Translations under genes and position numbers: made by a program
Shown here: positions 2,346 to 7,299 of the stretch, piece after piece
Position numbering within the stretch: position 1 is the first letter of the stretch
Layout of the letters: every line of letters starts with the position of its first letter
Origin: Bacilli bacterium
GTDB lineage: Bacteria; Bacillota_I; Bacilli_A; RFN20; CAG-826
Assembly (NCBI GenBank): GCA_017540455.1
Contig: JAFYAZ010000047.1
Location: 1 to 49,224 of the forward strand
Reading direction: 5' to 3'
DNA: 49,224 nt
The notes under the pieces: generated by a model
What the model was told of the DNA's origin: nothing
What the model saw: the letters and a program-made list of their open reading frames with translations, nothing else
Databases searched by the model: none

Positions 2346-3440
2346 CTATTTAAATAAGGATAATAATACGCGATCAAGAAGGAGGATTCCTTTGTCCGTG
2401 CAACGAACTCGATTTCCCTCAAAGACCAAGAGGCCATCGAGCTTTAACTTCTCAAGTTGCTCTTTGTAATCCTCTAAGAAGGAAGAACCGAAGCGTTTCT
2501 CATAGTTCTCTAAAGAGAAACCTTCTTCTAAGCGGAGATTCGTTAGGAAGAATTCCTCTTTCAGATCCTTTGCAGTGAGAGTCTCCCTCTCCCCTTCGAA
2601 ATCCCCTTTGAGATAGCTAAGAAGGTTCTTCGTGAAGGTGAAACGCTCACCATTTAGATAACCGCTGGCACCAAGGCCGGCAGCATAGTATTCCTCATCA
2701 TGCCAATAGGTAAGGTTATGGCGAGATTCATAACCAGGTTTAGAGAAGTTTGATACTTCGTATCTCTTGTAACCCGCTTTTCTGAATTCATTGAGGATAA
2801 GATCGTATTGGTTTGCGGCATCTTCATCATCCATTTCACTATAGCCTTTGTTGTGCCAGGAAGTACCAGGATTGACGCTTAGACAATAGGTCGAAAGATG
2901 AGGGACATCAAAAGATAAAAGCGCCACCACATCTTGCTTTACATCTTCTAAAGTCTCAGTTGGGAGACCATAGATTAGGTCACAGGTTATGTTCGTGAAA
3001 CCACATTTTTTGGCTAGTTTCACTTTCTCTTTTGCTTCCTCGAAAGTGTGCGCCCTACCCATCAACTTAAGGAACTTAAGATGTGAGCTTTCGACTCCGA
3101 TTGAGAGGCGGTTAACGCCGCACTCGCGCATAATCAAAAGCTTTTCCTCGTTGAGGTTCTCTGGGTTGGCCTCGATCGTGAATTCGTAGTCTGATTCGTC
3201 GAGATAAGTAGATAGTTTGCTCAATATCTTCTTAAGAAGATCGGATGGCAATGAAGAAGGTGTTCCACCGCCTACATAGACCGTCTTTAGAGGCTTATTG
3301 ATACCAAGACCATCTAATTGCTCGATGAGTCTATTCACATAAGAAAAGGCCCACTCTTCTTGGTAAAGGACTTTCGTGAAGTCGCAATACCCGCAGATAT
3401 GGGCACAAAATGGAATGTGAACGTATAAAGAATCGGCCAC
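2346..3440 (-). CDS. hemW: HemW-like radical SAM protein (heme chaperone family)
   Basis: This 364-residue protein is in the HemN/HemW family. The radical-SAM cluster motif CAHICGYC (C12, C16, C19) is followed by the SAM-binding GGGTPS and by IEANPE, LSIGVES and YGLPTET segments. The C-terminal HemW domain is present (NLTYWHDEEYYAAGLGASG). The extra N-terminal residues of true coproporphyrinogen dehydrogenases are absent, which favours the HemW heme chaperone. The start codon is GTG (GTGGCCGAT at 3440), 5 nt after the upstream stop and with no clear Shine-Dalgarno site, so translation is probably coupled. It is the last gene of the operon with the Fic-like and small membrane proteins. Confidence 0.88.
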   Translation of the reverse strand: MADSLYVHIPFCAHICGYCDFTKVLYQEEWAFSYVNRLIEQLDGLGINKPLKTVYVGGGTPSSLPSDLLKKILSKLSTYLDESDYEFTIEANPENLNEEKLLIMRECGVNRLSIGVESSHLKFLKLMGRAHTFEEAKEKVKLAKKCGFTNITCDLIYGLPTETLEDVKQDVVALLSFDVPHLSTYCLSVNPGTSWHNKGYSEMDDEDAANQYDLILNEFRKAGYKRYEVSNFSKPGYESRHNLTYWHDEEYYAAGLGASGYLNGERFTFTKNLLSYLKGDFEGERETLTAKDLKEEFFLTNLRLEEGFSLENYEKRFGSSFLEDYKEQLEKLKLDGLLVFEGNRVRCTDKGILLLDRVLLSLFK

Positions 3441-3445
3441 AGCTA

Positions 3446-3853
3446 TTATTTGTCTTCTTTGTCTTCGAAGGCAGCAGCTTCTTCTGGATGCTCTTCGGCA
3501 TAGCGACGCATCGCTTCAGCGGCGGCTTCGTCCTCAACGGCTTCGGTAGCGCGCTCAACTTCTTCTTCAGCGACTTCTTGCTCGGTTGGACGATCGCTAT
3601 CTTTCTCAAGCTCGCGAGCGGCTTCGTTCATCTGCTGAAGGGTCTTTTCATCGGTGATGTCGGTGACAAGACGATTAACTTCTTCCTCGGCGATTTCTTT
3701 GTCGCTCTTTGGCTTCTCGGTGTTCTGGAAAGGCTTGACGTATTTCTTTACAAGAATGACGGCTAAGACGATGATTCCGAAGAAAATGACAAGAGCAAGG
3801 GTTATGAATAATGGACTCTGGAAGAAGTCCTCGATGCTAGCGTAGATTTTCAT
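3446..3853 (-). CDS. Small single-pass membrane protein with acidic cytosolic tail
   Basis: I do not recognise a family. The 135-residue protein has one predicted transmembrane helix (about residues 14-36, FITLALVIFFGIIVLAVILV), a short basic stretch, and then an Ala/Glu-rich, highly acidic helical tail with repeated EEEV elements to the end. The start at 3853 overlaps the TGA of the Fic-like gene (ATGA) and has an AAAGGAG site inside that gene's 3' end. The tail resembles coiled-coil scaffolds in composition only. Position suggests a role linked to the Fic-like protein, but that is inference. Confidence 0.75.
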   Translation of the reverse strand: MKIYASIEDFFQSPLFITLALVIFFGIIVLAVILVKKYVKPFQNTEKPKSDKEIAEEEVNRLVTDITDEKTLQQMNEAARELEKDSDRPTEQEVAEEEVERATEAVEDEAAAEAMRRYAEEHPEEAAAFEDKEDK

Positions 3854-5382
3854 TTCTTTTCTCCTTTAGTGGCTGGACGGTAGACGAATTTGTTCTTCAC
3901 TTGGAGCTTTTCGTAATATCCTTCGCTGGCCAAGTGGTCCATCGAAGTACGGGCTGTCTCATAAGCGCAACGGCAGAACGATTTGTACTGCTGAATCGTG
4001 TAATAACGGCCTGGGGTGCAGTGATTGGCTAAGAAAGTCGACTGCTTTCTGTTGAGGCTTGGGTTGGTCTCAAGCAGATAGCGGACGTATTCTTTGACTT
4101 CCTTGTCGCTCAAAGTGTTGGCAGGCACGCCGAAACGATAGGCAGGTACGGAAGCTGTTTCCATCATCTCTTCTGGGGTGATGAATCCGCTTGGTTTTAA
4201 CGCGTTCTTTGGTTCTTTTTTCTCGATGACTGGCTCTTCTTCAATTACTGGAGCCTCTTCAACTACTGGAGCCTCTTCAACTACTGGAGTTGGTTCTTCA
4301 ACCTTAACTTCCTCGACCGGTTTCTCGATTTGAGGTTCCTCGACTGGAGCGCTAGGTTTGACGATTTCCTCAGCCCTCTTCTCCTCTTCTGGGGAAAGGG
4401 TGTCGTATTCTTCCCTAAAGTGAGAGACACGAGCTTGCTGGATCTGATCTTTGAGAAGATCGAGCAAACGGTTGAGGGAATTCATGCATCCAAGGATGAA
4501 GTAAGTCAAATCGCCATCTTTCTTGCATTCTTTGATTGATTCCATGATGGCGTGGTCGCTAAGAAGGCCTTCAAGAGGAAGCATGAAAGCGCTGATGCCA
4601 GAGCTTCCGCCCGCATAGACATCCTTCGCTAAAAGGATGGATAACGGGTAATTGAGATCATCGAATGGCTGAATGTAGGCGACATAGAATAAAGCAGTCA
4701 GAGTATTGATGAGAAGCTTATCGGTTCCTTTGAGCATCTCAAAGAGACGTTCCATCATCGCTTCGATGTCTCTAGCTGGGGCTTTGTCGTAGTCATAGCC
4801 ATTGATGATCGAGGTTGGACGATAGGAGCTTGGGCCTTCTTCGCGGTAGAACTTCGTGAGTTCAGGGACGCCAAGAAGATAGGTGAAAGCGTCGGCTAAG
4901 AAATTGTCGTCTGGTGGGAGGAGCCTTTGATCCTCGGCGAGATAATGGTCGAGGGTGTGGAGGTAATGGATGACAGGCGTATGCGTTGGAGCGTCTTCAC
5001 GGTAGGTTCCGTTAAGCAAGGCTCTTGTCGAAATATCGCTGATCTCCACTCCTTCATAGACGGAAATAGCGCGGAGCCACGGGAAAAAAGCGTTCTTCCT
5101 GACTTCGTACTTCGCCTTCTCATCGAGTCCACGGTAAAGCCTAAGAGTGTTGTCGATTTTGTTCTCGAACATCGCGATTTTGTCATTAATCACAGGAGTG
5201 AGCGTGACATAAAGCGGAGTTCTGTTGATCAAATAGATAGGAAGCTGGTAACGATACTGCTTTCTGTACTCTTCTTGCTCTTTCCAAAAGGAATCGACGA
5301 AAGTCGTGTTCAAAGCGCGAGACAATTCACGGCGATTAAGATACTTCTCGTCGGTATAAAGAGACGTGTATTTAGATGACAT
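3850..5382 (-). CDS. Fic-domain-like protein with degenerate active site, C-terminal winged helix
   Basis: This 510-residue protein resembles Fic AMP-transferases in layout. An EG element resembling the inhibitory-helix motif lies at residues 107-111 (SVYEG), a YRPTSIING strand at 187-195, and the active-site loop at 238-248 reads QPFDDLNYPLS. The canonical loop is HPFxDGNGRxxR. The catalytic His is Gln238, both Gly are lost (Leu243, Tyr245) and the Arg residues are Pro246 and Ile249. A Pro/Val/Glu repeat linker spans about 340-395. The C-terminus (about 455-503) looks like the winged helix found at the end of many Fic proteins (YYTIQQYKSF...TARTSMDHLASEGYYEKL). No AMP-transfer is expected. 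The ATG follows a TATAAT box by 8 nt, with no Shine-Dalgarno site. Confidence 0.68.
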   Translation of the reverse strand: MSSKYTSLYTDEKYLNRRELSRALNTTFVDSFWKEQEEYRKQYRYQLPIYLINRTPLYVTLTPVINDKIAMFENKIDNTLRLYRGLDEKAKYEVRKNAFFPWLRAISVYEGVEISDISTRALLNGTYREDAPTHTPVIHYLHTLDHYLAEDQRLLPPDDNFLADAFTYLLGVPELTKFYREEGPSSYRPTSIINGYDYDKAPARDIEAMMERLFEMLKGTDKLLINTLTALFYVAYIQPFDDLNYPLSILLAKDVYAGGSSGISAFMLPLEGLLSDHAIMESIKECKKDGDLTYFILGCMNSLNRLLDLLKDQIQQARVSHFREEYDTLSPEEEKRAEEIVKPSAPVEEPQIEKPVEEVKVEEPTPVVEEAPVVEEAPVIEEEPVIEKKEPKNALKPSGFITPEEMMETASVPAYRFGVPANTLSDKEVKEYVRYLLETNPSLNRKQSTFLANHCTPGRYYTIQQYKSFCRCAYETARTSMDHLASEGYYEKLQVKNKFVYRPATKGEKK

Positions 5383-5390
5383 ACCCCCAT

Positions 5391-5419
5391 ATTATAGGCA
5401 AAACGGGTATGTGAAACAA
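5391..5419 (-). promoter_or_regulatory. Promoter of the Fic-like/hemW operon, predicting a leaderless mRNA
   Basis: On the minus strand, TTGTTT (5419-5414) and TATAAT (5396-5391) are spaced by 17 nt. The ATG (5382) begins 8 nt after the -10 box, so a normal start point falls at or within 1-2 nt of the start codon. No Shine-Dalgarno site fits in between. Confidence 0.75.
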
Positions 5420-5427
5420 TACGATAA

Positions 5428-5448
5428 CTAAAAAACTACTAAAAGTAG
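5428..5448 (-). terminator. Terminator after lepA
   Basis: The minus strand has a CTACT/AGTAG stem with a TTT loop followed by TTTTTT. The stem is short (5 bp), but it lies between lepA and the next promoter, where a terminator is expected. Confidence 0.5.
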
Positions 5449-5481: not shown

Positions 5482-7299
5482 CTACTTTTCGTTGCTTTCG
5501 TCGATTGAGAGGAGAGCCATGAAAGCCTCTTGTGGAACCTCGACGGAACCGATGGCTTTCATTCTCTTTTTGCCTTCTTTTTGCTTCTCTAAAAGTTTCT
5601 TCTTACGGGAGATATCGCCGCCATAGCATTTTGCGAGAACGTCCTTGCGGACGGACTTGATATCGCTTCTGGCGATGACTTTGCCATTGATGGCGGCCTG
5701 AAGAGGAACTTCGAATTGCTGCTTAGGGATGATTTCTTTGAGCTTTGAGACGATGGCAAGGCCCCTGCTATAGGCACTCTTGCGATAAACGACTGTGCTT
5801 AAAGCGTCGATTGGGTCTCCATTTAGGTAGATGTCCATCTTAGCGAGGTCGCTTGGTCTGAATCCATCAAGCGTGTAATCAAGCGAAGCATAACCGCGAG
5901 ACACGCTCTTAAGGCGATCGAAGAAATTGAAGATGATCTCACTCAAAGGAATGAGGTACTTCAATGTCTCTCTCGTATCGTCGAAATAGATAAGGTCTTG
6001 GTAGATGCCGCGCTTGTCTTGGCAAAGCTGCATGATGGCGCCGACATAGTCTTTTGGCGTCATGATCGAAGCCATTACATAAGGCTCTTCGATTGTCTTA
6101 ATCTTCGATGGCTCCGGCATTTCGCTTGGGTTGTCGATGGTTAAAACCTCACCGTTGGTGAGATTGACTCTGTATTTGACGGAAGGCGCTGTGAGGATGA
6201 GGTTAAGGTTATACTCCCTTTCAAGCCTTTCCTGGACGACATCCATATGGAGAAGGCCTAAGAAACCGGCACGGAAACCAAAACCCAAAGCCTTTGAACT
6301 CTCAGGTTCATAGACGAGCGAAGCGTCATTTAAGGTGAGTTTCTCTAAAGCGTCTTTCAAATCGCCGTATTTTTGAGAATCGACTGGATAAAGACCACAG
6401 TAAACCATCGGCATGATTTTGCGGTAGCCAGGCAATGGTTCTTTTGCTGGTTTGTTTTCCAAAGTGACGGTCTCACCTGGGAAAACATCTTTGATGTCTT
6501 TGATTGTCGCGGTCAAATAACCGACTTCGCCGCACTCAAGAACGCCGGTTGAGAGTTCTTTTGGCGTGCGGATGCCGACTTCGGTAACGGTATATGATTT
6601 GCCGCTTTGCATAAGGCGGATTCTGTCTCCGACTTTGACGCGGCCGTTTTTAACTCTGATTAAGACGACGACACCACGATAGGAATCGTAATAAGAGTCG
6701 AAGATCAAGGCCTCGAGAGGTGCCTCGCTATCTCCGCTTGGAGGCGGGACGAGTTCCACTACTTTCTCAAGCATATCTTCGATGCCGGCGCCAGTTTTTC
6801 CGCTAACGGAAACAACATCGTTGGTGGAAAGACCGATCTTGGTTTCGATTTCTTTTTTGGCTAATGGGATATCGGCGCTTGGGAGGTCAATCTTGTTGAT
6901 GACCGGGATGATCATGAGGTCATTGTCGACGGCAAGGTAGACATTAGCGAGCGTCTGCGCTTGCACGCCTTGCGTCGCATCGACAACCAAAACGGCACCT
7001 TCGCAGGCCGCTAAGCTTCTGGAAACTTCGTAGGTGAAGTCCACGTGCCCAGGAGTGTCGATAAGGTTGAAAACATATTCGTTTCCGTCCTTTGACTTAT
7101 AAGTCATGGTGACGGCGTTTAGCTTGATTGTGATGCCGCGTTCCTGCTCAAGTTCCATATCATCGAGCATTTGGGCTGAAAGATTACGCTTCTCGACCGC
7201 TCCGGTTTTCTCAAGGATTCGGTCGCAGATAGTGCTCTTGCCATGATCGATGTGGGCAATGACGCAGAAGTTTCTAATATACTTTTTGTTGAACGGCAT
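5482..7299 (-). CDS. lepA: Elongation factor 4 (LepA), ribosome-associated GTPase
   Basis: EF4/LepA is a translational GTPase that acts on stalled or mistranslocated ribosomes and in 30S biogenesis. The 605-residue length is normal. The G1 motif AHIDHGKST (about 14-22), [14 protein letters not shown] and NKIDLP are intact, and the LepA-specific C-terminal domain ends as usual ([25 protein letters not shown]). The ATG lies 22 nt after the stop of the helicase gene. No Shine-Dalgarno site is visible, but a TATAAT box (7319-7314) ends 14 nt before the ATG, so a very short-leadered transcript is likely in addition to read-through. Confidence 0.96.

Follow-up and report, generated by a model that had tools for sequence, protein, structure and literature searches.

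What a Fic-like protein without its active site does for a bacterium that retains it is the question raised by this locus. The open reading frame concerned (5382..3850, minus strand, 510 aa), here named FICL, lies in a window of 49,224 nucleotides, i.e., the whole stretch of DNA analysed, and a preliminary description had proposed a dead Fic protein kept for a non-enzymatic role, for example as a DNA-binding regulator or as a scaffold together with the small membrane protein encoded next to it. The gene and its neighbours are the following:

5482..7299, minus strand: lepA, conserved upstream neighbour of FICL
3850..5382, minus strand: FICL gene, 510 aa; open reading frame with profile and fold match to Fic and orthologues across the order
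3446..3853, minus strand: small membrane protein, 135 aa, with one predicted transmembrane segment (TM) near aa 17-35 and an acidic tail (hydropathy)
2346..3440, minus strand: hemW, conserved downstream neighbour (Pfam Radical_SAM and HemN_C, synteny)

Profile matches to FICL occurred in 257 of the 279 genomes of the order and in 142 of the 150 good-quality ones, a few weak matches possibly being ordinary Fic proteins only. The gene stood between lepA and hemW in all examined loci of the order whose contig reaches that far, in most of them with a small one-TM protein gene between FICL and hemW (in the window it shares 4 bp with the FICL end), and the operon runs on to hrcA and grpE. In families f4, f6 and f8 and in several other families of the class lepA is directly followed by hemW. 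The suggested partnership with the small membrane protein gains from the conserved neighbourhood and loses from genome G035 (L151:3408-3776), where the small gene is kept between lepA and hemW and FICL is gone; the two may nevertheless act as a pair.

The domain order of the protein is an N-terminal winged-helix-like domain, a degenerate Fic core, a Pro/Glu linker and a C-terminal winged helix:

5203..5373, minus strand: N-terminal helix-helix-helix-strand-strand domain, aa 4-60 (AlphaFold2 secondary structure)
4402..5196, minus strand: Fic core and flanking helices, aa 63-327, catalytically degenerate
4636..4671, minus strand: degenerate Fic loop QPFDDLNYPLSI, aa 238-249 (70-orthologue alignment)
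4120..4368, minus strand: disordered Pro/Glu-rich linker, aa 339-421, with pLDDT below 50 and the highest omega
3868..4119, minus strand: C-terminal winged helix, aa 422-505, with YETARTSMD recognition helix; most conserved part

Compared singly with PF02661, the FICL sequence reached E = 0.04 and 15.2 bits, under the Pfam cut-off of 24 bits, while a profile of 26 orthologues matched solved Fic proteins with E = 5e-16 (4rgl) and 5e-14 (8cil), and the top Foldseek matches of the AlphaFold2 model (mean pLDDT 74.9) were all Fic proteins (8cil, 3zcn, 3eqx, 4rgl; best E = 1.5e-6). By fold and by sequence homology FICL belongs to the Fic/Doc family (PF02661), as initially proposed, and not to an unrelated fold. 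It shares fold and domain order with Fic proteins bearing a C-terminal winged helix (SoFic 3eqx/3zcn, Coxiella Fic2 8cil, 4rgl), from which the FICL family differs in having lost the catalytic His, both Gly and both Arg, and FICL also in its long disordered linker, its fixed genomic position and its iteron sites, described below. The N-terminal domain, whose W33, Y39 and R40 are invariant, appears winged-helix-like from the order of its elements in the model. The predicted Pro/Glu linker was recovered as an acidic segment, disordered in the AlphaFold2 model, and the terminal winged helix, modelled alone (mean pLDDT 83.8), showed four helices and a two-strand wing. Its fold is that of centromere-binding and MarR/ArsR-type winged helices: centromere-binding AspA, the pNOB8 protein and TubR were among its closest, if weak, Foldseek matches (E = 2e-3 to 1e-2), and Penicillinase_R Pfam matches were found in 16 of the 26 members. 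With its modelled helix-turn-helix and beta wing and its conserved recognition helix, FICL would qualify as a winged-helix DNA-binding protein.

The loop QPFDDLNYPLSI stands where active Fic proteins have HPFxDGNGRxxR and, as first read, keeps P, F, D242 and N244 but neither the catalytic His nor the two Gly and two Arg. Among 70 aligned distinct full-length FICL orthologues none had a His at position 238, which is taken by Lys (40), Gln (12), Arg (6) or Glu (4), and also by M, N, V or A. Pro239 is invariant and Phe240 nearly so (68/70); the phosphate-site Gly-Arg has turned acidic, with Glu or Asp at 245 in 38/70 and Glu at 246, the Arg position, in 41/70. The family consensus of the loop is [KQ]PF[DE]xxN[ED]Ex[AS], and the AMP-transferase motif HxFx(D/E)GN(G/K)R with its catalytic His is absent from the family. 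The retention of D242 holds for this protein and not as a family trait (11/70), and the EG element (E110-G111) that had been likened to the inhibitory motif did not stand up, the Glu being present in only 27/70 orthologues and the first position of (S/T)xxxE(G/N) having neither Ser nor Thr. Further along the Fic core, D291-x-T293-Y is nearly invariant.

The survey of homologues confirmed that the altered loop is conserved and returned no close homologue with an intact HPFxDGNGR motif. FICL formed a single clade (100/99) apart from every active Fic homologue sampled, and it is under purifying selection, with an overall omega of 0.09-0.16. By region, omega was lowest in the winged helix (0.00-0.03), higher in the Fic core (about 0.07-0.10) and highest in the linker (0.21-0.41). 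The missing His, the separate clade and the low omega together rule out a recent pseudogene or a recent mutation, and so FICL is an old, functional, order-wide pseudoenzyme. It could be objected that FICL is still an enzyme in which Lys or Gln replaces the His of an unusual motif: conservation was higher in the degenerate loop (0.58) than in the Fic core (0.47), if highest in the winged helix (0.71), and the possibility that Doc clades in which Gln replaces His are still active has been raised (PMC4454073). We find this scarcely credible, given the variety of residues at position 238, the acidic residues in place of the phosphate-binding Gly and Arg, and the short orthologues of family f25 (same class, outside the order), in which a 300-aa protein at the same place, adjoining lepA in 6/7 loci, still has its N-terminal domain and winged helix on either side of a shrunken Fic middle that has dropped the loop altogether. 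Selection therefore keeps the ends of the protein and not the Fic loop. A precedent is Bartonella BepC, whose non-canonical Fic domain has no activity found and acts by binding GEF-H1 (PMC8401265); as FICL may do, it uses the Fic fold for binding and not for catalysis, although BepC is a secreted effector with a recognisable motif and FICL is chromosomal, order-wide and DNA-associated.

A candidate DNA target was found at the promoter of FICL itself, where a direct repeat with a period of 11 bp, TTAGTAnnnnnTTAGT, precedes the gene in nearly every relative. The elements read in the window are:

5427..5442, minus strand: candidate FICL operator TTAGTAGTTTTTTAGT, two TTAGT(A) iterons 11 bp apart
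5414..5419, minus strand: predicted -35 box TTGTTT, read from the sequence, with a 17-bp spacer
5391..5396, minus strand: predicted -10 box TATAAT, read from the sequence, 8 bp before the start codon

The iteron pair, the only such site in the window, stands just upstream of the predicted -35 box. The operator recurred within 2 mismatches in 50 of 76 upstream regions, compared with 2 of 1520 shuffled regions, and many other upstream regions had 3-4 iteron units with other spacer letters. A palindrome upstream of FICL, CTACTTTTAGTAG, was dismissed as operator, being not conserved among relatives whereas the direct repeat is. The -10 box lies at the same short distance from the start codon in several close relatives, so the FICL transcript is predicted to be nearly leaderless. 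In family f25, boxes like TTTTGTCGAAA, which resemble Spo0A boxes, take the place of TTAGTA iterons within 150 bp upstream of the short orthologues (L093-L099).

Whole-genome searches showed that the iterons fall in one part of the chromosome. A search with 16 fixed bases was noisy in these AT-rich genomes, the control equalling the hits, and was replaced by a gapped pattern and an array scan. In G271, with dnaA at 1024 kb and the terminus marked at 290-310 kb by GC skew and the switch of coding strand from plus to minus, the arrays lie at 289-308 kb; in G078, 16 of 22 exact matches fell within 142-220 kb, with the strand switch at 184.5 kb; in G116, all 10 matches were on one contig around the strand switch at 83.4 kb. 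All matches were likewise on a single contig in G240 (7/7) and G130 (4/4), in the latter on a contig other than that of FICL. A period scan of 763 kb of terminus-region DNA yielded 47 arrays at 11 bp, 31 of them with at least 3 units, against 0-7 arrays at other periods except the 22-bp harmonic, and 300 kb sampled elsewhere in G271, a low-density genome, contained none. Arrays were intergenic in 39 of 42 cases, though 5-8% of that DNA is intergenic, with gene calls around arrays resting on open reading frame length only; they occurred in every gene arrangement and in both orientations, between convergent genes as well, and some in gaps of 10-50 bp overlapping ribosome-binding sites. The exact gapped pattern was found 115 times in 19 genomes with FICL vs. 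63 for the reversed control, and 15 vs. 40 times in 8 genomes of the order lacking FICL; the f25 genomes had no iteron excess (4 matches vs. 33 in the control). Site density varies greatly among genomes, exact matches being few in G127, G162 and G103, and in several genera the clusters have the terminus at their centre.

The iterons thus form numerous sites without polarity that keep to the terminus region, as a MatP-like function would require; scattered non-polar sites are the mark of MatP/matS, which is confined to Enterobacteriaceae and Vibrionaceae (PMC7188993). The likeness extends to the position of the sites, scattered over the terminus region around dif, but MatP is unrelated to FICL (no MatP model was among the Pfam matches of 26 FICL members) and matS is a 13-bp site in an 800-kb domain, unlike the 11-bp direct-repeat arrays described here, which extend over roughly 30-120 kb with one of them locked to dif. 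A further comparison is RTP/ter of Bacillus subtilis, of a related class, with which a winged-helix protein and terminus sites near dif are shared. That FICL is a polar replication fork trap of that kind might be argued from these features, from its autoregulation-type site and from sites flanking the terminus. However, each RTP site is an inverted A/B repeat of 32 bp, the sites being grouped by polarity, and fork traps need opposed site groups (PMC13220808), whereas arrays on both replication arms were mixed in orientation (about 8 plus and 6 minus on the left, 7 plus and 11 minus on the right); the fork trap was set aside on this ground as very improbable, and a Pfam scan of 26 members gave no RTP match, FICL being non-homologous.

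The array nearest the strand switch adjoins a canonical Xer site. We mapped dif in 30 genomes, 22 with and 8 without FICL, and found in 20 of the 22 an iteron pair of the same orientation with 0-2 mismatches on the XerD side, its start and that of dif lying 122-175 bp apart; the exceptions were G019, with a degenerate remnant, and G025, with no iterons at dif. The 8 FICL-lacking genomes of the order had a normal dif and in no case an array beside it, one match at 2 mismatches standing at the wrong offset. The association of the dif array with FICL (Fisher p = 1.3e-4) is not corrected for phylogeny, and the FICL-lacking sample is phylogenetically clustered. Most of it comes from families in which the system may never have existed, which leaves few independent losses; a FICL-lacking contrast nested in a family that otherwise has FICL and iterons is offered by G035 alone. 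In the genome of the window dif lies at G000:C47:32039-32064 with a weak iteron pair 135 bp on, and further iteron sites occur at C47 22916, 36478 and 40863. Between dif and the iterons of most FICL genomes there is also a DnaA-box-like element, TTWTCCACA, placed on the XerD side some 90-125 bp from dif (L291-L313), and family f3 (G038, L292) has iterons on either side of dif, in greater numbers than the other families.

The placing of the array, constant in distance and orientation relative to dif, is that of Xer accessory sites, fixed spacing being the mark of those at cer (PMC5357621). ArgR/PepA at cer and ArcA at psi are likewise DNA-binding regulators with sites at a fixed distance on one side of the core, although cer and psi are plasmid sites and here chromosomal dif and an unrelated protein are concerned. 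Iterons that are scattered and non-polar and at the same time hold a fixed spacing to dif mean that the data show the marks of both MatP/matS and accessory sites.

The same sites could be read in a more ordinary way, with FICL an autoregulated transcription factor and the terminus sites the operators of a small regulon lying near the terminus by chance. The best-conserved site is indeed at FICL's own promoter, directly upstream of the -35 box, and the genome of the window has other iteron sites just before dxs and tkt. What makes this unlikely, while deserving consideration, is that sites also lie between convergent genes and over ribosome-binding sites in the short gaps, that one keeps its geometry relative to dif, a non-coding recombination site, and that clusters are centred on the terminus in several genera. 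The preliminary description was right about a dead Fic retained by selection, with DNA binding as its presumable role; since the apparent targets lie at its own promoter, at the terminus and at dif, 'regulator' is too narrow and a chromosome-terminus role fits better. A second doubt concerns the owner of the iterons: another winged-helix protein could bind them and FICL be merely one of its targets, FICL binding being deduced indirectly and the f25 orthologues, with a nearly identical recognition helix, having no such iterons. We consider this quite unlikely, because genomes that lack FICL lack the iterons too, among them G035, whose family otherwise has both, and because the FICL promoter site is present in G025 although dif there is without iterons.

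We therefore lean towards FICL as a dead Fic turned into a site-specific terminus and dif DNA-binding protein, autoregulating and MatP- or Xer-accessory-like, as the probable reading, in which binding to the iterons and the role of the complex are what we infer. The C-terminal winged helix, probably aided by the N-terminal one, would bind TTAGTA iterons spaced one helical turn (11 bp), and arrays so spaced would load several FICL molecules onto one face of the DNA. By binding immediately before the -35 box of its own gene FICL may regulate itself, and by binding the terminus arrays and the dif-adjacent array it may build a terminus nucleoprotein complex, which would hold or position sister termini and give the XerCD reaction its partner or its timing. 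The dead Fic core could serve as a dimerisation or partner-binding scaffold, core and acidic linker making protein contacts, and the small membrane protein is possibly the membrane anchor of the FICL complex. The fuller proposal, an undescribed terminus system of Bacilli in which FICL on 11-bp iterons joins with the small membrane protein to tether or synapse sister termini so that dimers are resolved, is put forward tentatively, at a little short of even confidence.

Neither the FICL family nor TTAGTA iterons were found described in a literature search. Few lineages have a known terminus organiser, and the link between terminus and division is an open matter in most bacteria. ZapT of Caulobacter crescentus (PMC7188993) is, like FICL as proposed, lineage-specific with a preference for terminus-proximal DNA, the protein being unrelated. 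With a gene present almost throughout the order, a short code in the DNA and a constant geometry relative to dif, small-genome Bacilli offer a system that can be tested directly. If the proposal is true, FICL would correspond to MatP and to the plasmid Xer accessory proteins without being homologous to them, would be the first chromosomal use of a dead Fic fold, and would illustrate clearly how the fold of an enzyme can become a chromosome-binding protein. It suggests that gut and rumen bacteria of the group finish copying and separate their circular chromosome in a way so far undescribed, and the iterons and dif geometry allow dif to be located and the terminus to be marked in uncultured genomes.

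Other Fic proteins are encoded in these genomes. A separate, apparently active class (L100, L103, L104, L158, L159, L161) carries HPYFDYNGRTAR, with Tyr for the first Gly of the motif. An origin of FICL from this HPYFDYNGR class of the same genomes was considered, the loops being alike, but the tree joins FICL to neither active class. The advised search for a second Fic in the genome of the window returned one above the Pfam cut-off (L031:644-1678, G000:C26), rejected as a close paralogue of FICL (profile similarity not significant, probability below 1%). Its motif HPYQHANGRLSR has the His and the Arg and is without the acidic metal-binding residue, and its gene directly precedes an EF-G-like GTPase gene.
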